A stretch of 64,000 bases of DNA from Drouetiella hepatica Uher 2000/2452 (lineage in GTDB: Bacteria > Cyanobacteriota > Cyanobacteriia > Elainellales > Elainellaceae). Shown piece after piece: positions 22,736-35,575 of the stretch (positions are counted from its first letter, which is position 1; every line of letters starts with the position of its first letter). The position numbers were made by a program, and so were the translations under genes. The stretch is from positions 248,001-312,000 of the forward strand of contig JAHHHD010000001.1 of NCBI GenBank assembly GCA_019359505.1. Direction: 5' to 3'. The notes below the pieces were generated by a model. It saw nothing but the letters and a program-made list of their open reading frames with translations. It was not told where the DNA came from and ran no database searches.

Positions 22736-25300
22736 ATGTCATATACTGCAACACCTACTTCCGCAGCAATGGCGAAGACGGGTGCAGATGTTCAATTGAT
22801 TGCGCCCTTATCGGGTCGTTTGGTGAAAATCGAAAATGTGCCCGATCCGGTCTTTGCAGAAAAGATGGTGGGCGATGGCATATCGATCGATCCCATCAGC
22901 CAAACGTTAGTTGCGCCCTGCGACGGGGAGATCATTCAACTTCATCCCTCCCACCACGCGGTCACGATCAAATCCCCTGAAGGGATAGAAGTGCTGATGC
23001 ACATTGGGTTGGATACGGTAACGCTCCGAGGCGAAGGATTTGTGCCTCACGTAAAAGTGGGCGATCGCGTCCGGTCAGGCGATGCGCTTATTGACTTTAA
23101 TGCCGACTATGTAGCAACTCACGCCCGGAGCTTGCTCACACAAATTGTGATCACCAATGGCGAAAAAATAGCTCAGTTTTTGCCCCAGTCGGGAGACGTG
23201 ATTGCCGGACAAGATTTGTCTTTGACGCTGGTGCTGGCAGGAAATACGCAGGCGACGACCGCTCAGAGTGGCAAGCTTGTGACTTCTGAAGCGATCGCCA
23301 TTTCCAACCCCACAGGACTACATGCCCGACCTGCTGCGGTTTTGGTGAATTTAGCCAAAAAATATAAGTCCGAGATTCGCCTCAACTCTGGCGATAAATC
23401 GGTCAACGCCCGCAGCGTCGTGGCGATTATGGGTCTGGAAGTCGGCAATGGCGATCGCGTTCACCTTACCGCCAAAGGGGAAGATGCCGAAGCCGCGATC
23501 GCCGAGCTGAGTCAGGCTTTACAGTCGGGTCTGGGAGAAGAAGGTTTGAAGCCAATCGCGGCTTCGGCAAGTGGGGCAATGCTGGATGCCGCACCCCGGA
23601 TGCGATCGGATAATCCTAATCTAATTTTGGGCGTCTCGGCTTCTCCGGGTGTAGCGGTCGGCAATATTTTCCGGATTACCCACGAAGAAATCGCGGTTGC
23701 CGAAACGGCGCAAAGCCCTAACGAAGAGCGCCGCAAGCTAGAAAAAGCGGTAACTCAGGCAAAGCTAGAAGTTGAGGCATTACGCTCTAAGGTTCACGGT
23801 CAGGCAGATGCGGGCAAAGCCGCCATTTTTGCCGCCCATCAGGAGCTACTTGAAGACCCTGAGCTGGTTGATGGTGCCACTAGCGCGATCGATCAAGGCA
23901 AAAGTGCCGCCTTTGCCTGGAAGCAATCCTACACATCTCAGGCAACGACCCTCTCTCAGCTTAAAAATCAGCTTCTCGCCGCACGGGCTAATGACCTGCG
24001 GGATGTAGGCGATCGCGTTTTACGGATACTGACAGGCGCGGCTATTGCCTCAACTGACTATCCAGCCAACTCAATTCTGGTGGCAGAAGACCTCACCCCC
24101 TCCGATACTGCCACAATGGATCGCGGCAAGGTCTTGGGTTTCTGCACCGTCGGCGGTGGAGCCACCTCCCATGTGTCAATCTTGGCGCGGGCAATGGATA
24201 TCCCGGCGATCGCGGGTGCCGAACAGCGCATTCTTGATCTGGCAAACGGTACTCCCGTGATTCTTGACGGCGGCAAGGGCACCCTGCGGCTCAATCCTGA
24301 CCCTGCCGAAATGGAGCAGGTACGGCAACGACAAGTCCGACTAAAGGCAAGACGGCAGACTGAGCTAGCGGCAGCCGAGCAACCCGCCATCACTACAGAC
24401 GGGCACCGGATGGAAATTGTTGCCAACATTGGAAACAAAGCCGATGCCGAAAAAGCCATGACCCTCGGCACTGAGGGCGTAGGGCTACTGCGATCGGAAT
24501 TCATCTTCCTCGATCGGGCAACTGCCCCGACTGAGGACGAGCAAACCGAGATTTACTCTGGCGTGGCGAAAGTGTTAGGCGATCGTCCGTTGATCATCCG
24601 CACCCTCGACATTGGCGGCGACAAACCCCTCGCGTACCTGCCTATGCCCCACGAAGAAAATCCTTTCTTGGGCGAACGGGGAATTCGCATTGGTCTCGAT
24701 CGTCCCGAAATTTTCCGGACTCAGATTCGTGCCATCCTGAAAGCTTCTCAGTTCGGCAACGTCAAAGTCATGTTCCCCATGATTGCCACGCTAGATGAAA
24801 TCCGGCTGGCAAAATCCATGATGGAGGAAGAACGCCAGAAGCTAGGTGTTTCCCCCATCTCAGTCGGCATCATGGTAGAAATTCCAGCCACAGCTGTCAT
24901 TGCTGACCAGTTTGCTAAAGAAGTAGATTTCTTCTCAGTCGGCACCAATGATCTGACCCAATACACCCTAGCCATGGATCGCGGACATCCTAAGCTCGCT
25001 CCCTTCTGCGATGGCTTAAATCCGGCAGTCTTGAAGCTGATCGGCATGGCGGCAGCGGCATCCAACCAGCAGGGCAAATGGACAGGCGTTTGCGGCGGCA
25101 TTGCCAGCGATCCACAGGCTATCCCAATTCTGATTGGTTTAGGCGTAAAGGAACTCAGCGTCAGCGTTCCTACAATTCCTAGCGTCAAAGCCCAAGTGCG
25201 CCAGCTGAACTTGCAGCAGTGCCAGGAGCTTGCTCAGAAGGCGATCGCCTGTGACACGGCAGCAGAAGTCAGAGCGCTGTATTCGCCTCAAGAAGACTAA
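22736..25300 (+). CDS. PTS fusion protein IIA(Glc)-HPr-Enzyme I
   Basis: An 854-residue fusion of three soluble phosphotransferase proteins. Residues 20-160 are IIA of the glucose type, with the phosphorylated His89 in VLMHIGLDTV. Residues 187-270 are HPr, with His196 in GLHARPAA and NARSVVAIMGLEV. Residues 295-854 are Enzyme I: His479 in GGGATSHVSILARAMDI, the PEP-binding GTEGVGLLRSEFIFLDR, LIIRTLDIGGDK and SVGTNDLTQYTLAMDR. Together they carry phosphate from PEP to IIA. CAGGAG precedes the ATG. The 45-base gap to ptsG shows one operon. Such fusions are known in proteobacteria (as with nag and fru systems). PTS transport is rare in cyanobacteria. HIP1 sites within the gene suggest long residence. 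Confidence 0.93.
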   Translation: MSYTATPTSAAMAKTGADVQLIAPLSGRLVKIENVPDPVFAEKMVGDGISIDPISQTLVAPCDGEIIQLHPSHHAVTIKSPEGIEVLMHIGLDTVTLRGEGFVPHVKVGDRVRSGDALIDFNADYVATHARSLLTQIVITNGEKIAQFLPQSGDVIAGQDLSLTLVLAGNTQATTAQSGKLVTSEAIAISNPTGLHARPAAVLVNLAKKYKSEIRLNSGDKSVNARSVVAIMGLEVGNGDRVHLTAKGEDAEAAIAELSQALQSGLGEEGLKPIAASASGAMLDAAPRMRSDNPNLILGVSASPGVAVGNIFRITHEEIAVAETAQSPNEERRKLEKAVTQAKLEVEALRSKVHGQADAGKAAIFAAHQELLEDPELVDGATSAIDQGKSAAFAWKQSYTSQATTLSQLKNQLLAARANDLRDVGDRVLRILTGAAIASTDYPANSILVAEDLTPSDTATMDRGKVLGFCTVGGGATSHVSILARAMDIPAIAGAEQRILDLANGTPVILDGGKGTLRLNPDPAEMEQVRQRQVRLKARRQTELAAAEQPAITTDGHRMEIVANIGNKADAEKAMTLGTEGVGLLRSEFIFLDRATAPTEDEQTEIYSGVAKVLGDRPLIIRTLDIGGDKPLAYLPMPHEENPFLGERGIRIGLDRPEIFRTQIRAILKASQFGNVKVMFPMIATLDEIRLAKSMMEEERQKLGVSPISVGIMVEIPATAVIADQFAKEVDFFSVGTNDLTQYTLAMDRGHPKLAPFCDGLNPAVLKLIGMAAAASNQQGKWTGVCGGIASDPQAIPILIGLGVKELSVSVPTIPSVKAQVRQLNLQQCQELAQKAIACDTAAEVRALYSPQED

Positions 25301-25345
25301 TTTTAATCCTCCGTCTATTGGCTATTCGTACATTAGGTAAAAGCG

Positions 25346-27196
25346 ATGTGGAAAAAAGCGTTTTCGTTATTGCAGCAGATGGGAAAGTCCCTGATGCTGC
25401 CAGTTTCGGTTTTGCCGATCGCTGGGCTTCTCTTAGGTTTAGGCAGCGCCAAGTTTAGTAAGCCCGAAACTTTCTTCTGGATGCCAGAATTTTTGGCGCA
25501 GATCATGAAGGTTTCGGGAGATGCCATTTTCGCCAACCTGCCGCTGATTTTTGCGGTATCTGTGGCGATCGGTTTCACGGGTAATGATGGCGTTTCGGCG
25601 CTAGCGGCAACTGTAGGCTTTGCGGTGTTCGTGGCGGCTTTGGGTGCAGCTTCGGTGACGCTTTGGGGGGTCGATCCCAAGACTCTCGATACCGTTATGG
25701 GCATTCCCTCGCTGAATACGGGCGTGTTTGGCGGTCTGATCATGGGCTGCATTGCGGCGTATTTGTTCAACAGGTATTTTAGGATTCAACTGCCGCAATA
25801 TCTGGGCTTCTTTGCGGGCAAGCGGTTTGTGCCGATTATTACTTCTTTGGCAGCGATCGCCTTTGCCATTCTCATGAGTGTCATCTGGCCTCCCATCGGA
25901 GCCGCCATCAAAACTGCGGCAAATACGGCGGCGGCAGGTGGCAACGTTGCCTTTACTGCTGCGCTTTATGGCGTAGTGGAGCGATCGCTCCTCCCCTTCG
26001 GACTGCACCATATCTGGAACGTGCCCTTCTTCTTCGAAATCGGCTCCTTTACGGATGCGGCGGGTAAAGTTGTTCGTGGCGATATTACGCGCTTCTTTGC
26101 TGGAGACAAGACTGCCGGAATTTTGGGCGGGGCTTACTGGTTCAAGATGTTTGGGCTGCCTGCGGCGGCGATCGCCATGTGGCACTCGGCATACCCCAAA
26201 AACCGTAAAGTGACGGGCGGCTTGATGCTGTCGGCAGCCTTCACCTCGTTTTTGACGGGCATTACCGAGCCAATCGAGTTCTCCTTCATGTTTGTGGCAC
26301 CGGGTCTGTATGCCGTTCATGCGCTGATGGCGGGTTTCTGCGACTGGCTGTTCCAGATTATGGGCGGCAAGATGGGCTTTACCTTCTCTCACGGCTTCAT
26401 CGACTTTGCCTTGTTCAACACGCTAGGAACCAAGTCCTGGCTGATCATTGCCTTTGGCCCGCTGTTTGCGGCGCTCTATTATTTCGTCTTCCGATTTGCC
26501 ATCAAGCACTTCAACCTGAAAACGCCGGGTCGAGACGATGAAATTGAAGATGCGGCGGTCTTTAGCGGCGACAGCGCCGGATCGGACATGGCGAGAGAGC
26601 TGGTGAGAGCCTTTGGCGGTCGCAAGAACATCGCAACGCTGGATGCCTGCATTACCCGTCTGCGGATCACCGTCAACGATATGCAAAAGGTTAACAAGCC
26701 CAGGCTAAAGGCGCTAGGCGCATCGGGCGTACTTGAAGTAGGCAATAACGCGCAGGCTATCTTTGGCCCACGATCGGAAAACCTGAAAACCGACATGATC
26801 GAATACCTGAAAGGGGCAGGAGCAGAGGCCGATGAAGGCTATGTGTCCCCGGCAGTAGCGACGGCAGTGGCTTCGGCAGCTGCTAATGGCGGCAGTCTGG
26901 ATACCGCTAATCTAGATACTGCTCCGATCGCTTCCCAGCGCGATCCAGATGCAGCCCGACGGATGCAAGACGCGATCGCGGCCTTGGGAGGCTCTGCCAA
27001 TATTCTGAATGTCCAGCCCGCTGCCCTAACTCGTTTGCGCGTAGAAGTTGCTGATGAGAGTCAGGTGGACGATGCAGCGCTCCGAGCTAGCGGCGTAGAG
27101 GGCGTGATGCATCTACCCGACCATTTGCTGCACCTGCTGGTGGGCTTAAATGCCGATCAATATGCAGAGGAAATGAACAGACAACTGGTGAAATAG
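25346..27196 (+). CDS. ptsG: PTS glucose permease IICB with an extra IIB-like domain
   Basis: A 616-residue membrane permease that imports and phosphorylates glucose. The IIC part (1-395) closely follows proteobacterial PtsG: SLMLPVSVLPIAGLLLGLGS, GFTGNDGVSALAA, QLPQYLGFFAGKRFVPI, LLPFGLHHIWNVPF and GITEPIEFSFMFVAP (305-319). The IIB part (about 410-490) has the phosphocysteine Cys435 in LDACITRLR. E. coli PtsG ends at 477 residues. Here a linker (490-530) and a second IIB-like domain (531-612) follow, in which the Cys position holds Ala560 (QPAALTRLR). N-acetylglucosamine specificity is less likely given the close match to PtsG. A stable hairpin terminator follows directly. Confidence 0.92.
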   Translation: MWKKAFSLLQQMGKSLMLPVSVLPIAGLLLGLGSAKFSKPETFFWMPEFLAQIMKVSGDAIFANLPLIFAVSVAIGFTGNDGVSALAATVGFAVFVAALGAASVTLWGVDPKTLDTVMGIPSLNTGVFGGLIMGCIAAYLFNRYFRIQLPQYLGFFAGKRFVPIITSLAAIAFAILMSVIWPPIGAAIKTAANTAAAGGNVAFTAALYGVVERSLLPFGLHHIWNVPFFFEIGSFTDAAGKVVRGDITRFFAGDKTAGILGGAYWFKMFGLPAAAIAMWHSAYPKNRKVTGGLMLSAAFTSFLTGITEPIEFSFMFVAPGLYAVHALMAGFCDWLFQIMGGKMGFTFSHGFIDFALFNTLGTKSWLIIAFGPLFAALYYFVFRFAIKHFNLKTPGRDDEIEDAAVFSGDSAGSDMARELVRAFGGRKNIATLDACITRLRITVNDMQKVNKPRLKALGASGVLEVGNNAQAIFGPRSENLKTDMIEYLKGAGAEADEGYVSPAVATAVASAAANGGSLDTANLDTAPIASQRDPDAARRMQDAIAALGGSANILNVQPAALTRLRVEVADESQVDDAALRASGVEGVMHLPDHLLHLLVGLNADQYAEEMNRQLVK

Positions 27197-27256: not shown

Positions 27257-28690
27257 TCACGATGCCAATTCCGTCAGGGTACCCTGCTGGTTTCTTGGAA
27301 TTTCAATCCAAAACTCTGTGCCCAACCCCGGTTCCGATACACACCGAAGAGTTCCCTTATGTTTTTCAGCAATAATTTGATAGCTAATAGACAATCCTAG
27401 TCCTGTGCCTTTACCGACTGGCTTGGTTGTGAAGAACGGATCAAATAATTTTGCCCTCACGGTTTCTGTGATTCCAGGTCCATTGTCTGCAATTCGGATG
27501 GCGACACTGTTTATTCCTTGAACCTCTGTTGTAATCGTAATTCTGCTGGGATGGCGGCGAGTTTCCATAGCCGATCGCTGGCTGTTGTAGTCATGCAGCG
27601 CATCGATCGCATTGCTCAGAAGATTCATAAAGACCTGATTGAGTTGCCCCGCAAAGCACTCTACTAAAGGCAAATCTCCATACTGTTTAATCACCTCAAT
27701 CGCAGGATGCTCAGCTTTTGCCTTCAGCCGACTCTGCAAAATTAGCAGGGTACTGTCAATCCCCTCGTGAATATTAACTGCTTTCATCTCGGACTCATCC
27801 AGACGAGAAAAATTGCGCAGTGAGAGCACAATCTGACGAATCCGATCTGCCCCTAATTTCATTGAAGAAATGATTTTTGGTAGATCTTCAGTTAAAAAAG
27901 CTAGATCGATGGTTTCACTATGCTTCTCAATTTCTAGGCATGGATTGGGATAGAACTGGCGGTAGAGATGCAAAAGCTCCAGCAAATCCTGCGTGTACTC
28001 GTTGGCGTGCTTTAAATTGCCATGTATAAAGTTCACAGGATTGTTAATCTCGTGAGCAATTCCAGCCACTAACTGCCCAAGACTCGACATCTTCTCAGTC
28101 TGGATCAATTGAGTCTGGGTTCGCTGTAGTTCCCCAAGCGCTTGCTTCAGCTTTGTCGCCTGAGCTTCAGCAATTTCAGCTAAATTCTCTTTAATTTGCA
28201 AGGCGCTTCGTAATTGTGCCTGCTGCTGAGTTAGCTCTTCTGTTAACTTTTTTGTGTCAGCTAGAGCTACGTTCTTGGCTTGCAGCAAAAAAAGAAAGTC
28301 AACAACCGGATCGTGGGTTGCAAAATCCTTTAGCTTAATCCCCAAAGGAGTCAGGCTAGCCGTGTCAGTGACCCAAGGCGATCCCAGGAAGAAAATTATA
28401 TCCTGGTCTTCTACACACATCATCTGCCCCTTGATTTGCATCCCGTTATGGAGAGACTCCAGGATGAAGAGGGAGCGAGATTGTTTCTTAATGGCATCAA
28501 ACTCAAATTCAATGGTTGGACGATTGATTTGAAAATGCTCCTCGATCTGGCTGCCCACCAACGCTGTAGGAACAACGCGCCGCAGAACTTCCCCAGCCTG
28601 TAGAACTTCGCGATCGCGGTTGAGCACCAAATGAAACGGAAAGGCATTGGAAAATAGCTGCGGCGGCAGACAGAGAGAAGGAGAACCCAT
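27257..28690 (-). CDS. H-NOX-associated (HNOBA) histidine kinase
   Basis: A 477-residue kinase. Residues about 8-145 form an HNOBA domain ([47 protein letters not shown]), a PAS-like partner of H-NOX sensors. A coiled coil (150-215) leads to the HisKA box with the phosphorylated His in [14 protein letters not shown]. HATPase motifs follow: N box in [37 protein letters not shown]. The gene ends the six-gene run, seven bases after the H-NOX gene. No receiver domain or response regulator is in the window, so the output is unknown. In Nostoc, H-NOX next to an HNOBA kinase is established. Confidence 0.9.
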
Positions 28691-28696
28691 GATTAT

Positions 28697-29248
28697 TCAG
28701 GTTTGCTTATACTTGATTGAAAATTCATCGTGCTCAGCACCTTCCTCTCGACTTTGAGTTTGAGTCACTTCAACCTCTGTATCAAAGCGAGTGCCCAGCC
28801 CTTTAACCAACCCCACCACCATTGGGGCTAGTCCTTCTCGGCTAGAGTGATAGTGAAGGTTTAGAGCCTCTCCAGTTTGCTGCGTACAGTCAAAGGAGGG
28901 GGGGTTAAGCTGAGGAAAAATAACCCCAACACGAGCATGGAGATTGTCCAGGTTTTCTAAAAACTCTGGCAGATTATCGCCACTCATTTCCATCATTTCG
29001 CCGTAGCCTTCCTGAGCCGTGTACGTCACCCAAAACTCGCCAAAAGCCTGCATGATTTCTGAAGCAGATAAGCCTAAAACTTCGCTGGCAGCTTTGACTA
29101 GCTTGTGGGTTACATCATCGGGATACCCTTCCATACTGATAAAGGTATCCATCTCTAAGTTTGCTTTTTGCTTAATTTCCTTCCAGGTATTTGCACCAAA
29201 ATGACTGCATACCATGTCTTCGATTGCTTTGTTCACAAGTCCGTACAT
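28697..29248 (-). CDS. hnoX: H-NOX heme nitric-oxide sensor
   Basis: A 183-residue heme domain protein. The start at 29248 ([13 protein letters not shown]) has GGAGG upstream; the open frame to 29356 is not needed. The proximal heme ligand is His104 in LDNLHARVG. The YxSxR motif that holds the heme propionates is Tyr133-Ser135-Arg137. Trp73 occupies the distal region in EFWVTY and no distal Tyr is seen, as in NO-selective cyanobacterial H-NOX proteins, not O2-binding ones. It sits between two HNOBA proteins on the same strand, its likely partners. Confidence 0.93.
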
Positions 29249-29352
29249 ATAATCCTCCGGCTGATCTAACAGTTGGCTTTTATAATTAGTCGCTTTTTTA
29301 GCCGCTTTTACAGTTAATCTAAAATTCCCCGTTTTCTCGCCATAGCAACAAT

Positions 29353-32154
29353 TCAAGCTATTAATTCCGCTGTTAGCAGTTTCTCAGTCATCTTGCTATC
29401 CAGAGGAACAGAGAAAAAATACCCCTGTCCGCTTTCGCATTGCAGTTCTCTCAGTCGTGCTAGTTGCGGGGCAGTTTCAATTCCTTCAGCAACGGCATCC
29501 ATCCCTAAACTTTGAGCAAGCAACACAACGGTACGAATGATCTCTAGCTTTTCAGCATCTGTATCCACACTCTGAATAAATGAGCGATCAATCTTCAATG
29601 TATTCACAGGAAAGCGGCTGAGATAACTCAAGGATGAGTAGCCAGTACCGAAATCATCCATTGACAACTGAATCCCCAGCGCTTGAAGTTCCAATAAAGT
29701 ACTTGTTGTAAACTCTACATTTTCCATCAGAATGCTTTCGGTGATTTCCAAGTTCAATCGGTGAGCATCCATTCCAGTTTCTTGCAGAATTTGTTGAATT
29801 TGGACAATGAAATTCGTCTGAGAAAATTGCTTACCAGAGATATTCACACTGATGGCTAAATTATGAGCAACCGGAAATTCCTGTTTCCAATGTTGCATTT
29901 GGCGACAAGCCTCCTGCAACACCCACCCTCCCAAGGGAATAATCAATCCAGTCTCTTCAGCTACAGAAATAAACTCTCCAGGAAAAATAAGACCTCGTTC
30001 TGGGTGAACCCAGCGAATTAGCGCCTCGAAACCGATAATTTTTTGGCTTTCCAACGCCACAATTGGCTGGTAGTGTAATTGAAACTCCTGGCGCTCGATC
30101 GCTCGGCGCAGATCGGTTTCTAACTGTAGCAGTGCTACTGCCCGCACATGCATTGCGGTATCAAAGATCTGATACTGGGCTTTACCCATGCTTTTAGCGT
30201 GATACATGGCAGTATCCGCATCGCGCAGTAATTCTTGAGGATGTTCATAGCCTGTTGTATTGAGAGCAATGCCAATACTGGTACTGGCGAAGATCTCATT
30301 CCTACCTAGGTGAAACGGCAGCATTAGCTCTTCTTGCAATCGCTCAGCTACTTGAATGACGTAGGAACTATCTTGGATATCTTCAAGCAAAATGGCAAAC
30401 TCGTCACCCCCCAAGCGAGCGATCAGATCGCCACGACGCAGACAGTTCTCTAATCTGCGGGAGATGGCGATCAGGAGTTGGTCACCGATAATATGACCAA
30501 GACTATCGTTGATGACTTTGAAGCGATCGAGATCCAGAAAAAGAACGGCGAATAAACAGCCTTCTTGCCGTTTTGTTAGGGCGATCGCCTGCCCCAGTCG
30601 CTCCATAAATAAAGCCCGGTTAGCTAAACCCGTTAGCCCGTCATGTAAGGCATCATGAATGAGCTGCTCTTCAACCCGTTTGCGCTCAGAAATATCACGA
30701 CAAACAATTACGCCTCCTCTGAGCACCTCGTTTTTATCTTTGAGCGGTCTTCCGGTCGCTGTAACCCAAACACCGTCGGGTGTTTGAGCATGGCACACAA
30801 ACATTTCGACATCATTAACCTTCTCGCCACGAATAGAGCGCTCTAAGGGTAAATCTTCAACGTTAAACGGAGTCTGGCGATCGGGGAGATAGAAATTTAG
30901 CGTTTGTGAGCATTTAGTTGCAACTGAGTGATTTTCAACTGAGTGATTTTCAACTAAATGTTTGGCGGTCGAGCCAAACATCCGTTCCGCTGCTGGATTA
31001 AAGACCAGGAAATTCCTGTTCTCATCCGCAACGATGACCGCATCACCCATGCTGTCCAAAATTGATTTCAGACTTTCTGAAATTTCTGTTTGCTTCAGCA
31101 GTGCTGCTTCGATTTGCTTTCGCTGGTTAAACTGCCCTACCTTGATGCCAATATCAACCATCATTTCCAGCAAGTTATCGTCGGGCTGACAGGACTTATG
31201 GCTAAAAAACTCAAGCACCCCGATGACTTCAGTGCCATTTTGGATCGGTAGCCCAAACCCACCCTGGAGCTTTGCCTCGATCGCATGGAGTCTACAGGGC
31301 GAATTGGAATCTGTGACGATATTTTCTATCCAAATCGGTTCACGCTCATGCCAAACACAGCCCGCTAGACCTATTCCCATGGGCAGAGTCAGCATCCGAG
31401 TCAACAGCTCAAATTCTTTGAAATGTTCCGGAACCGCAGTCCAAACTCCTTGACACTTCAAGACATTGGCTGATGGATCAACTAGCCACAGCACACCCAC
31501 CTGCCAATCTAATGCAGTACCGATCGCCGCCAAAATTTTGATTGTTGCCTCACCAAAGGTTGCCGATTCCGCCAGGATGTGGGTTACAGCATAGAGGGTA
31601 GACAGCCTTTGATTGGTCTGACGGAGTTCTGATCGTTGCCGAGTCAATTCATCCGTCAGTTTCTTAGCGTCAGATAAAGCCGTGTTTTGAGCTTGAAGTA
31701 AAAAGAGAAAATCAACAACTGGATCATGAATTGCAAAATCGCTAAGGGTGATTCTGTAGGATTTTAATGAAGCAATGTCCGTTACCCAAGGAGAGCATAA
31801 GAAAAAGAGAATATCTGACTGTTCGACATACACCATCTGTCCCTTGAGCTTCATCCCATTTTGCAGCGATTCCAACAGGAACAGCGATCGCGTCCGCTTG
31901 CGGATCTGATCAAACTCTATGCCGATATTAGGGCGATCGACACGGAAATGCTGCTCAAGCTGGCTTCCTGTAGATAACTCAGGATAGATTTTCTGTAAAA
32001 CGTCTCCAACCTGAATAATCTCGCGATTACGATTGAAGACAAGATGAAATGGAAAAACCTCCGTGAATAGATCGGGGATTAACTTAAAGCAGGATAACGA
32101 TTGAACGCTTTTAGGTTGGGATGAACTAGATGGCGGTATGATTGCACTTAACAT
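29353..32154 (-). CDS. HNOBA-GAF-PAS-GGDEF-EAL c-di-GMP protein
   Basis: A 933-residue signalling protein. Order: HNOBA (about 28-155), a coiled coil, GAF (about 185-335), PAS with its C-terminal PAC segment (about 355-480), GGDEF (about 490-650) with intact [14 protein letters not shown], and EAL (about 665-925) with [24 protein letters not shown] and [13 protein letters not shown]. Both cyclase and phosphodiesterase motifs are complete, so it may make or degrade c-di-GMP depending on signal. The HNOBA part shares [20 protein letters not shown] and the [18 protein letters not shown] helix with the kinase downstream. In the PAS linker the sequence VENHS is tandemly duplicated. It starts 54 bases behind the diiron-oxygenase gene. 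Confidence 0.93.
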
Positions 32155-32207: not shown

Positions 32208-32936
32208 TCATACGGAAAGAAGCTGAAGTGATTTTGTTGGATAAATCAGTGTAGATGTTTGGCGTAAAATCCCGTCGAAGAATCGCACTCTTGCATTCAT
32301 AGCATCTAAAATTGCGCGGTTCACATCCATCGCAACTTCAGTGCTGGTAATACGAGGTTCGATTAAAGCCGCTAACTTGGCGGCGTGACTATCATCTACA
32401 TCAATATGAACATCAAAAAAGATGAGCGCTTCCTTGGATAAGAATGCTGCCTCAGCAATCCCATTTTGAATCTGAGTGTAAAGTGTGCTGACGATCCCTT
32501 CTGAAGCAAAACAGACGGCTCCTAAAGCTGCCAGATAATCGTATTGATGCGGCAGGTTTAGATAGGTGTCGATTAAGTGGCGGGTTTCGGGTTCAGTTGG
32601 CAAGGCTGCCAGCGTCTGATCATCAATACCCAGTTCGCGTGTGAAGTGCCGGAACAACTCTGGATGGGCGAGCTTAGGGTCTCCCTGACCCATTTCATCA
32701 AATAAGTTTTCCAGAATCACCAGTTGAGCCGATTCATCCGGACAGCAAGACAAAATACCTGCCAAAATGCGGTTAAATTCTTTAGAGAACTTGTACATCT
32801 GAACAGCAAGCATCTGCACTTCTGCTAAAGTGAGCTGACTTGTCTGACAACGGATCAAAAACTCATGGCTCCAGAGAGGATGATCGGCGGTCACTTCGTG
32901 GAATGTTTGCATGACGGAAGAAGAGAGTGAATTCAT
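32208..32936 (-). CDS. Heme-oxygenase-like diiron oxygenase (HDO family)
   Basis: A 242-residue all-helical protein. Metal-ligand candidates follow the HDO pattern: Glu53, Glu81 with His91 nine residues on (DEMGQGDPKLAHPEL), Glu146 in CFASEGIVST, and His177-x3-Asp181-x2-His184 in DVHIDVDDSHA. HDO enzymes include SznF (N-oxygenation), UndA (fatty-acid decarboxylation) and BesC (C-C cleavage), so the reaction cannot be named. The start codon overlaps the stop of the methyltransferase gene (ATGA), showing translational coupling. The substrate is probably a small acid or amine modified by the two upstream enzymes. TenA-type thiamin salvage is less likely because the metal ligands are kept. Confidence 0.82.
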   Translation of the reverse strand: MNSLSSSVMQTFHEVTADHPLWSHEFLIRCQTSQLTLAEVQMLAVQMYKFSKEFNRILAGILSCCPDESAQLVILENLFDEMGQGDPKLAHPELFRHFTRELGIDDQTLAALPTEPETRHLIDTYLNLPHQYDYLAALGAVCFASEGIVSTLYTQIQNGIAEAAFLSKEALIFFDVHIDVDDSHAAKLAALIEPRITSTEVAMDVNRAILDAMNARVRFFDGILRQTSTLIYPTKSLQLLSV

Positions 32937-33694
32937 CGGGACACCTGCACAGCTAAATGAAGTGGATAGTCAATCAGGGGGGTAAAAAAAGAGGGATCAA
33001 GCGCCACATGCTCTTGCAGCACCCGCAGTTCCCGCAAGGTTGGCATGGTATTAAACCCAGCGGCTTTCAGAGCGTCGAAGTAGTCTTCTAGGGTTTTATG
33101 GACAAGCTGTACATCTAGCCAAGAGCCATCCCGTTTCCAAATTCGTCCGGGAAACTGGCGATCGCGCTGGCTAAAATAACCTGCTCCATCAACTTGAAAA
33201 TAGAAGGGATATTCTGGCTGCCGCATATAAGGAAATGCCGGATGCGGCACGCTGAAAATAAATCGTCCACCCGGTCGGAGAATTCGGGAGACCTCCGCCA
33301 TGCATTGCTGAGTCTGCTCAGTGGTTAAGTAATTGAACAAAAAGACGGCTACTACGAGATCGAGCTGATGATCGCCAAACTGCGACAGGTCAGTGGCACA
33401 GCCGACCTCATACTGGATACCCAAGCCCTCTTGAGATTCCTGCGATCGTGCCGCCTCGATCATGCTCTGGGATAAATCAATGCCCATTGCCTCGGCTCCT
33501 CTACGGCGCAGCTCTCGGCTGCAATAGCCCTCGCCACAGCCCAAATCAAGGACTTGTAGCCCAGCAACTGGCTCACACAACGCCAAAATTGCCGGACGCG
33601 CCGTAAAGTCTGAGAGGGAACTGGGTTCTCCCCGTACCCACTTAGGTGCCGTATCGTTGTACAAATCTCTAGTTGAATGAGTGTGAGTTTGCAT
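32933..33694 (-). CDS. SAM-dependent methyltransferase
   Basis: A 253-residue class I methyltransferase. SAM motif I is VLDLGCGEGYCSREL, followed by the acidic strand end AMGIDLSQSMIEAARS, then DLVVAVFLFNYL and ILRPGGRFIFSVPHP. The C-terminal part (about 160-215) has YPFYFQVDGAGYF and a Trp-rich strand, common in small-molecule methyltransferases. Its stop overlaps the next start by four bases. The substrate is unknown. The order oxygenase, methyltransferase, diiron oxygenase suggests successive tailoring of one metabolite. Confidence 0.88.
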   Translation of the reverse strand: MQTHTHSTRDLYNDTAPKWVRGEPSSLSDFTARPAILALCEPVAGLQVLDLGCGEGYCSRELRRRGAEAMGIDLSQSMIEAARSQESQEGLGIQYEVGCATDLSQFGDHQLDLVVAVFLFNYLTTEQTQQCMAEVSRILRPGGRFIFSVPHPAFPYMRQPEYPFYFQVDGAGYFSQRDRQFPGRIWKRDGSWLDVQLVHKTLEDYFDALKAAGFNTMPTLRELRVLQEHVALDPSFFTPLIDYPLHLAVQVSR

Positions 33695-33774
33695 GTGTTG
33701 CTGAATTCATGAGGAGTAGTGGTCAGGACAAAGCCCTAACCTGAGAGAAAATCTAGCCGGATTGGCTGAGCGTT

Positions 33775-33828
33775 ACACCCTGATGCCTGGAGCGTTAAAA
33801 CACACCCTGATGCCTGGAGCGTTAAAAC
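33775..33828. repeat. 27-bp tandem duplication at the oxygenase stop codon
   Basis: ACACCCTGATGCCTGGAGCG plus seven bases is repeated exactly twice. The second copy runs into the stop codon of the oxygenase gene (33822-33824), so the original gene end was copied downstream. Confidence 0.8.
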
Positions 33829-34817
33829 ATCTGGACGGTACGGTAATCCCTGGTATAGAGGGGAACCGCACCCGAATTGTTTTTCCTGGCTTTAGCGGCT
33901 TCGACAGACTCATCGAACACAATCAGTGAGTCTGTGCCCACCTTCAACCAGTCTTCATAGGGCACACTCATATCTGTTTCCACGCCGCCGCCGCTGGGAG
34001 GCACCATTGCCCTGTAAGCTTCGTTAAATTTTCGACGGAAGCGAAAATCAACGGAGATTCGTACGCCATCGGAGACTCGTCTCACGGTTTGGTGGAGTCC
34101 GCGCGCATCGTTGAAGTACATCGTGCCGTGCTGCAAGCTGGCATTGTCGTAGGAGACTACCATGGGGATGTCTCGCCCTTCGCTAAAGTCGGACATCACT
34201 CGCATCGAGGGCAATTCCATTTCGCGGGGCATTTCTCCCGCTTCAATGGTGATGTTTTCGATGTCACCAAAGAGAGGCAGAACGACCACTGTGGCATCTG
34301 CCGCCACCCCAGCCCAAACGTCGCTGTGGCGCTTGGTGCTAGTGAACGGCAGCCGCAATTTATCCGCAGCCATCTTGCCATAAACAATACGGAGATTGAC
34401 AGGCAGATCGACGGCATCGATCAGGTCATTGGCGCCTAGCTGACGGAAGGCGTTAGCCACGCTTTTTTGAAAGGTATTGAATTCTAGAATATGCTCACGC
34501 TTAGGCATGAGTAGCCCAGTTCCCATGTAGTTAGGAATTGTGCCTTTAGCTTCTAGAAGCCGTTCCAGCATTTCTGCTTCAGATAAGATAACGGGGCTGT
34601 TTAAACAGGCAGAAACATAGCCAGCGGCAGCAATCTGGATTTGCTGAAATAGCTCAGGTTTCAGCGTGTGTTCAAAGAGTAGGCGATAGTCCCGGCGGGT
34701 GGCAATTCTGGAGGCTAGCTCATCAAAAAGCCGATCGCCGAGTTGAGAAAAGGCGATCGCCTCCTCCTCTGTGACTTGATGAGCTAGCTTTGTTCGTTCT
34801 ATCAGTCCCCTAACCAT
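33822..34817 (-). CDS. Probable Fe(II)/2-oxoglutarate-dependent oxygenase
   Basis: A 331-residue protein with no name I can assign from memory. It carries the full facial-triad pattern of 2-oxoglutarate oxygenases: His164-x-Asp166 (TKRHSDVWAG), a distal His242 and, exactly ten residues between, Arg253 (GLHQTVRRVSDGVRISVDF). The region between is strand-rich and contains LPLFGDIENITIEAGEMP and the FYND-like TMYFNDARG. About 140 helical residues precede the core. These enzymes hydroxylate, desaturate or halogenate. It is first in the run, 127 bases before the methyltransferase. The start at 34817 has GGAACAG upstream. A cupin of another type is possible but fits the motifs less well. Confidence 0.7.
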   Translation of the reverse strand: MVRGLIERTKLAHQVTEEEAIAFSQLGDRLFDELASRIATRRDYRLLFEHTLKPELFQQIQIAAAGYVSACLNSPVILSEAEMLERLLEAKGTIPNYMGTGLLMPKREHILEFNTFQKSVANAFRQLGANDLIDAVDLPVNLRIVYGKMAADKLRLPFTSTKRHSDVWAGVAADATVVVLPLFGDIENITIEAGEMPREMELPSMRVMSDFSEGRDIPMVVSYDNASLQHGTMYFNDARGLHQTVRRVSDGVRISVDFRFRRKFNEAYRAMVPPSGGGVETDMSVPYEDWLKVGTDSLIVFDESVEAAKARKNNSGAVPLYTRDYRTVQMF

Positions 34818-35575
34818 TTTTCTGTTCCTTACTTTCTAGAGGTGGCGATCGTTTTTGCTACTTAAACTCCAATACTTAGAGATCACCATCGAAATGGAAA
34901 TCATCCTCATCAATCAATTCGTTAAGTGGATTGGTGAAAGTTCAATAAGTTGTTTTAGTCTGGCAATGTGTCCTTAAGACCTATTCTTCTTTAAGTCCTA
35001 AAACCATGTTTTGGTTTTAGATAATCTTCGTTGCTAGATGATTTTGTTCTAACAGCTAAGTTTATTCATTGCAATCGTTGAAAATACAGAGATAGGATTC
35101 CAATTAATTGAAAATAAAGGCGTTTATTTTTTTCAAATATGCTGCTAGCAATCCTTTTAACTATTCAAAGCCTTATCTAGCCGTTGATTGATGAATAGAC
35201 TACATTGCTTCTTTATGTAGATAAAAAGCATCTTCATATAGAACTTATTTAGGTTTTTTGTATTCCTGATTCATTAGATTAGAGAGGTATCAGCAATTTT
35301 AGTGATGTGAGTTCAGCTATTTGGCTGAGTCCAATATTTTGAGTTGTAAAGAATTCAGTATTGGTGATTTCTATAACCAGGCCTGAGCGGATGACATAAC
35401 TCAGTTAACAGTCGGGGCGTGCAAGGAGCGATCGTTAACTGAGTTATATCTATTTCCAGTATTTTGAGTTCAATTTAGCCTTTGTAGCAATTCAGCCAAC
35501 ACACGCTTGAAAAGTGTCGTGGGCGGGCGTAACCCGACTGAGCGATAATGCATTAGGTTTTTATGGACAGCCCTG
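34818..35575. other. Long AT-rich leader region
   Basis: This 758-base stretch should contain the promoter of the six-gene run and that of the GT4 gene. 34900-35350 is strongly AT-rich with no gene. A near repeat of CCA(A/G)TATTTTGAGTT occurs at about 35331 and 35456, flanking the inverted repeat at 35396-35447. Confidence 0.5.
35396..35447. repeat. 14-bp inverted repeat, 24-base loop
   Basis: ATAACTCAGTTAAC (35396-35409) is mirrored exactly by GTTAACTGAGTTAT (35434-35447). Each arm contains GTTAAC. It may be a protein-binding site or the remains of a mobile element. Confidence 0.5.

Follow-up and report, generated by a model that had tools for sequence, protein, structure and literature searches.

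A conserved three-enzyme gene set beside an H-NOX/histidine kinase pair in cyanobacteria suggests an unstudied small-molecule pathway linked to nitric oxide sensing

Three genes occupy positions 32208 to 34817 of the window, by which we mean the whole 64,000-nucleotide stretch of Drouetiella hepatica Uher 2000/2452 DNA that was analysed. They encode a putative mononuclear Fe(II)/2OG-type oxygenase (gene A), a class I SAM methyltransferase (MT, gene B) and a heme-oxygenase-like diiron oxygenase (HDO, gene C). As an earlier sequence-only reading of this DNA had pointed out, the three share a strand, which is the minus strand, and the last two overlap as ATGA, by 4 bp; the gap between genes A and B is 127 bp. 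Beyond the presumed promoter region of gene A lies a divergent GT4 glycosyltransferase gene, for which the other loci have no conserved counterpart. The features of the locus are listed below.

34818-35575, no strand assigned: intergenic region upstream of gene A, presumed promoter region
33822-34817, minus strand: gene A, putative mononuclear Fe(II)/2OG-type oxygenase, 331 aa (open reading frame, invariant residues, weak PhyH profile similarity)
33775-33829, no strand assigned: perfect tandem duplication of 27 bp, situated between genes A and B and overlapping with the gene A stop codon
32933-33694, minus strand: gene B, class I SAM methyltransferase, 253 aa (Methyltransf_25, Methyltransf_11)
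32208-32936, minus strand: gene C, HDO, 242 aa (PF14518)
29353-32154, minus strand: HNOBA-GAF-PAS-GGDEF-EAL protein, putative c-di-GMP output (Pfam domains)
28697-29356, minus strand: H-NOX, predicted heme NO sensor (PF07700, 1.3e-57)
27257-28690, minus strand: HNOBA-histidine kinase (HNOBA 2.6e-31, HATPase_c 7.7e-25, HisKA 2.2e-6)

The product of gene C matched PF14518 (Haem_oxygenas_2) with an E-value of 1.1e-29 and a score of 103.9 bits, the cut-off being 28.9. Its metal ligands, E81-x9-H91, E146 and H177-x3-D181-x2-H184, follow exactly the HDO pattern described for it previously, and all six are invariant in 40 of 40 homologues. They make up a 3H/3C set, which is found in HrmI, BesC and UndA and not in SznF; the HDO superfamily as a whole counts about a dozen characterised representatives among more than 10,000 members (PMC13108848). 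The nearest solved structures are those of CADD, BesC and HrmI. HDOs with 3H/3C ligands also carry out C-C cleavage and desaturation, so that N-oxygenation is not fixed by the sequence. An AlphaFold model of the protein was all-helical, but at a pLDDT of 42 too poor to be of use, the underlying alignment probably being too uniform.

Gene B matched Methyltransf_25 (5.4e-24) and Methyltransf_11 (4.5e-23), and it carries the DxGCGEG SAM motif of class I methyltransferases with residues invariant in 40 of 40 homologues. By profile, the solved structures nearest to it are ToxA and related methyltransferases, and no SznE chain was among the solved-structure matches. A role of gene B in defence was set aside, as its PADLOC mad2 match (58 bits) covers just the generic methyltransferase domain.

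In gene A, the HxD...H facial triad and the 2OG-binding arginine of Fe(II)/2OG enzymes are present as H164 (34328-34326) and D166 (34322-34320) of an HSD motif and H242 (34094-34092) and R253 (34061-34059) of H242-x10-R253. These are the very residues named in the sequence-only reading, and they are invariant in 42 of 42 homologues. Pfam, NCBIfam, PHROG, PDB, plasmid, phage and viral searches returned no match for gene A, and a 16-row profile still found none in Pfam, NCBIfam or PDB. When hhalign was used to compare the gene A profile with five 2OG families, each represented by cyanobacterial proteins, PhyH (PF05721) was the sole family to give a signal, weak at a score of 23-26, a value that block-shuffled profiles attained in 2 of 200 and 0 of 60 cases; PF10014, PF13640, PF05118 and TauD gave none. 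In one alignment with PhyH, the HxD, the second His and the Arg are in register with the PhyH catalytic residues, and in another the aligned part contains the second His and the Arg only. The AlphaFold model of gene A had a pLDDT of 31, and its alignment, too, was probably too uniform. Taken together, this evidence supports, but does not prove, that gene A encodes a mononuclear-iron 2OG oxygenase: the label given to it earlier is kept as a putative one because of the invariant HxD/H/R residues and the weak PhyH match. As for the trio as a whole, codon position 3 differs about 3.5 to 9 times as often as position 2 between the window and either of two related loci (L018 or L019), and this excess together with the invariant residues indicates that the three proteins are under purifying selection and that their motifs are not due to chance.

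The H-NOX gene downstream of the trio encodes a PF07700 domain, whose proximal His and YxSxR heme motif (residues Y, S and R) are unchanged in 56 of 56 sequences. Homology starts at M37, which places the likely start of the gene at about 29248. The protein aligns over its full length with the H-NOX Alr2278 of Nostoc, the structures of which have been solved (crystallised, according to the structure entries); since it is one residue shorter than Alr2278, its proximal His falls at position 104. H104 is also the residue given for the H-NOX of Nostoc punctiforme, the cyanobacterial protein studied by NMR (PMC9510103), which may itself belong to the trio-linked lineage, judging from this residue number. 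The GGDEF-EAL gene sits between the HDO and H-NOX genes in the window and in L018 only, with 41 other loci compared, and no response regulator was found in the locus. The constant NO sensor, which is the most informative feature, sits outside 32208-34817.

The distribution of these genes was followed in a first sample of 386 cyanobacterial genomes and then, on a larger scale, in about 85,000 species genomes. Intact gene A was found in eight of the 386 genomes, including that of the window, the other seven copies being 73-79% identical to it. Genes B and C adjoin gene A in all eight, with H-NOX and the kinase next to them (neighbourhoods of 14-20 kb), so that the five genes are contiguous in all seven intact relatives. 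The larger scan yielded 41 loci, all of them cyanobacterial and mainly from Nostocales; the others are two Leptolyngbya-type loci, L018 and L058, and a Synechococcales MAG, L056. A search for the three genes together in other cyanobacteria had been named beforehand as a check, and A, B and C indeed occur together in all complete loci. Moreover, A, B, C, H-NOX and kinase are contiguous in 39 of the 41 other loci (in one of them, L026, the kinase was matched in part, near a contig end), the exceptions being L022, which starts at a contig end, and L044, which is a decayed copy. The same-strand order reported for the window holds there and in the two Leptolyngbya-type loci only, whereas gene A is divergent from B-C in the remaining complete loci. 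A conserved element of the divergent region in Nostocales was sought as a shared operator and is absent from the window, and we therefore do not propose a regulatory site shared by these loci.

H-NOX occurs in 27 of the 386 genomes and the trio in eight of these 27, never without H-NOX. The other cyanobacterial H-NOX loci that were read contain H-NOX and kinase without the three enzymes, hence the dependence is one-way and the sensor does not rely on the trio. For the five proteins, the matrices of distances among 39 loci were correlated with Spearman coefficients of 0.86-0.95, and the correlation between gene A and H-NOX was matched by 0 of 500 permutations. In the H-NOX tree, the trio-linked sequences cluster, and the trio label needs 6 changes compared with 14 for shuffled labels. 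Four genomes that lack the trio (G338, G340, G251 and G068) are nested among the trio-bearing Nostocales of this tree, and most simply they would have lost it. Decay also affected the genes jointly: in G340, a 35-aa end of gene A is left, B and C are gone and the kinase is shortened; in Nostoc sp. LPT (L044), gene A contains a stop and B, C, H-NOX and the kinase N-terminus have been lost. The five genes are a conserved unit, inherited together in about 40 species, which suggests a pathway wired to NO sensing. NOS was set aside as the source of that NO, as it is present in just two of the eight trio genomes and not in that of the window.

Gene B proved to be the best marker of a wider family of HDO-linked methyltransferases. 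At a threshold of E<1e-45, its subfamily was found in 13 of the 386 cyanobacterial genomes, and an HDO gene adjoins it in all 13. Eight of them are of the type described here (A, B, C). Another four, all of genus g29, combine the MT with an HDO-cupin fusion and with a member of the TauD family that resembles 2-trimethylaminoethylphosphonate and gamma-butyrobetaine dioxygenases. In the last one (G343), MT and HDO are accompanied by a putative 2OG protein of 276 aa, a DegT-type aminotransferase and what we read as an ATP-grasp-like protein. A similar set lies on a plasmid of the alphaproteobacterium Indioceanicola profundi, where overlapping HDO and MT genes are accompanied by a DegT aminotransferase and a 280-aa protein 45% identical to the putative 2OG protein of G343, with TPR glycosyltransferase-like and flgK/flgL-like genes as neighbours. 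The MTs beside HDOs in these other lineages are 48-51% identical to that of the window, and the HDOs only 19-24%, with the ligands kept apart from a change of D181 to E in g29. The MT-HDO pair is found with several unlike oxygenases; it therefore seems to belong to a recurring biochemical unit in which the mononuclear-iron oxygenase can be exchanged.

Among the known systems, SznE/SznF (StzE/StzF) consists of an MT and an HDO-cupin protein, which make the N-nitrosourea of streptozotocin that decays to NO (PMC11705231). The likeness lies in an MT working with an HDO and in the relative of the window MT that adjoins an HDO-cupin fusion. However, gene C, at 242 aa, comprises the HDO domain alone, with a short E-x9-H loop and six ligands without a seventh, in contrast to the 3H/4C set of SznF, and the window has in addition a 2OG-like protein and the coupling to H-NOX. 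An HDO also acts with an Fe/2OG enzyme in HrmI/HrmJ and BelK/BelL, which make nitrocyclopropylalanine; the available part of PMC10764440 has HrmI and HrmJ acting in turn, calls BelL IDO-like and describes no MT or H-NOX partner such as those of the window. What the window shares with these pairs is a 3H/3C HDO and a putative mononuclear Fe/2OG-type partner. It differs from them in that gene A showed no similarity in hhalign to the cyanobacterial members of PF10014, the Pfam family of IDO. CADD/4-aminobenzoate synthase and BesC gave the best or near-best scores among the HDO relatives, but gene C reached 89 bits against a cut-off of 200 for TIGR04305 and 52.8 against 500 for the BesC equivalog NF042919, and its neighbour genes differ from those of both. 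Moreover, in the CADD alignment the window HDO has Leu27 in place of Tyr27, the self-sacrificed tyrosine of CADD. Guanitoxin biosynthesis was rejected as a model, because GntA, the N-oxygenase of that pathway, belongs to the YqcI/YcgG family of heme proteins and is not an HDO (PMC10849742). The sensor and kinase resemble the Alr2278-type H-NOX/HNOBA kinase pairs of Nostoc, with heme-binding residues intact, whereas the three enzymes carried here are missing from the other cyanobacterial H-NOX loci that were read.

The fixed trio, its co-evolution and joint decay and the recurring MT-HDO pair support a compact pathway of MT, HDO and oxygenase. This part of the earlier proposal is supported; the H-NOX and kinase partners had been missed, and with both of them constant the likely biology shifts from stand-alone tailoring to a pathway linked to NO sensing. 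We tentatively infer that A, B and C form a short biosynthetic pathway for an N-oxygenated, methylated metabolite, which is controlled by NO or acts via the H-NOX/kinase pair; this is the reading that we favour, at somewhat less than even confidence. The class I MT and the HDO would act on one common small substrate, the HDO most likely oxidising the nitrogen of an amino-acid-like compound, in the manner of HrmI, SznF and BelK, and gene A would perform a further oxidation. Binding of NO to the H-NOX heme would change the activity of the kinase and thereby switch the pathway; in the opposite direction, the pathway might act through the adjacent H-NOX/HNOBA histidine kinase.

Ranked second after the NO-controlled metabolite is a reading in which the trio itself would be a NOS-independent source of NO or of an N-nitroso compound. 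A guanidine or amine would be methylated as in SznE/SznF and N-hydroxylated by the HDO, gene A would take the place of the SznF cupin in collapsing the product, and H-NOX would read the NO released. The MT-HDO pair does adjoin an NO receptor, a related MT elsewhere adjoins an HDO with the cupin-fused architecture of SznF, the SznE/SznF product is a precedent for decay to NO (PMC11705231), and NOS is absent from the window genome and from five of the seven other trio genomes searched (six of eight). Yet the window HDO has no cupin and 3H/3C rather than 3H/4C ligands, no similarity between it and SznF could be detected in the comparison with solved structures, and the H-NOX/kinase pair also occurs without the trio. 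We regard this reading as rather unlikely, and a fully self-contained circuit, in which the MT, the HDO and the mononuclear-iron enzyme yield NO or an NO-releasing metabolite with H-NOX and kinase as the dedicated receptor, as distinctly unlikely.

The chemistry might also spare nitrogen altogether: the HDO would then cleave a C-C bond, desaturate or carry out some other reaction as BesC and UndA do, giving a methylated amino-acid or fatty-acid derivative, and H-NOX would set the timing only. The ligand set allows this, and BesC and CADD are as close to gene C as HrmI is, but the repeated pairing with an MT and the existence of a relative fused to a cupin point rather to N-oxidation, and a constant NO sensor would then have no bearing on the chemistry, so that we consider it improbable. 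That gene A is some other protein with a coincidental HxD/H/R pattern appears more doubtful. The silence of Pfam, NCBIfam and PDB even towards the 16-row profile, the four 2OG families without signal and the low pLDDT of the model would fit such a protein; the 42-of-42 invariance of the four residues, their register with the PhyH HxD/H/R, the rarity of the PhyH score among shuffled profiles and the TauD or putative 2OG protein found in the analogous position in sister assemblies speak against it. Finally, the link to H-NOX could be an inherited neighbourhood without a functional tie, since the locus lies beside apcEAB in most Nostocales whose flanks were read, and such a single conserved place reduces many of the loci to one ancestral event. 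However, the five genes have not been separated in Leptolyngbya-type loci, nor in loci where the flanks are different and the orientation is inverted (the outer flanks of the window, L014 and L015 differ from the common apcEAB setting), and they decayed jointly in G340 and L044, which makes this explanation very improbable.

Among open-licence papers, we found no description of the trio/H-NOX locus, nor any paper naming the targets of cyanobacterial H-NOX proteins or the origin of their NO. Present in about 40 species next to a single H-NOX lineage, the fixed cassette offers a testable answer as to what such a sensor targets or where its NO comes from. The HDO superfamily gains from it a tightly defined MT-HDO family, in which the oxygenase partner is of three different kinds. 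Overall, our results suggest that the trio is an unstudied small-molecule pathway linked to NO sensing.

The five-gene locus (the trio of gene A, methyltransferase gene B and HDO gene C, with the H-NOX and HNOBA histidine kinase genes) adjoins apcEAB in most of the Nostocales read. In L014 (genome G191) and L015 (G300) apcEAB is no longer its neighbour and all of the locus is intact; therefore, the module holds together when its flanks change. Close to gene A, the element CAGTATATTTKACGAAG is conserved in most of the Nostocales divergent intergenic regions read between the methyltransferase gene and gene A (loci L019, L020, L029, L038, L053 and others), and may be a regulatory site in these loci. 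The window was searched for this element, which was absent. In the window, the stop codon of gene A lies within a perfect 27-bp tandem duplication (33775-33829) between genes A and B.

Elsewhere in the window, a pair of genes apparently encodes a full sugar phosphotransferase system, to the best of our knowledge unusual in cyanobacteria:
22736-27196, forward strand: PTS_EIIA-HPr-enzyme I fusion and, downstream of it, a PTS EIIC-EIIB permease

Related assemblies were found in other genomes:
L207:7905-11118 (also L229, L230, L231): HDO-cupin fusion, methyltransferase and TauD-type oxygenase
L206:6289-7668: HDO-cupin fusion, on a contig of genome G053
L214:9418-16852: HDO-methyltransferase pair, putative 2OG protein and DegT aminotransferase, on an Indioceanicola profundi plasmid

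The first set occurs in four genomes of one cyanobacterial genus and is faced by a nitroreductase-family gene. Within the genome sample that includes G053, the L206 fusion is the next nearest HDO to that of the window after the trio family; contamination of G053 is estimated at 9%. The plasmid set, neighboured by TPR glycosyltransferase-like and flagellar hook-protein-like genes, perhaps provides a modified sugar for flagella.

Among the loci compared, only the window and L018, a Leptolyngbya-type locus, carry a further gene:
window 29353-32154 and L018:12743-15466: HNOBA-GAF-PAS-GGDEF-EAL protein

Its insertion between the HDO and H-NOX genes suggests that a c-di-GMP output was added to the same sensor, H-NOX.
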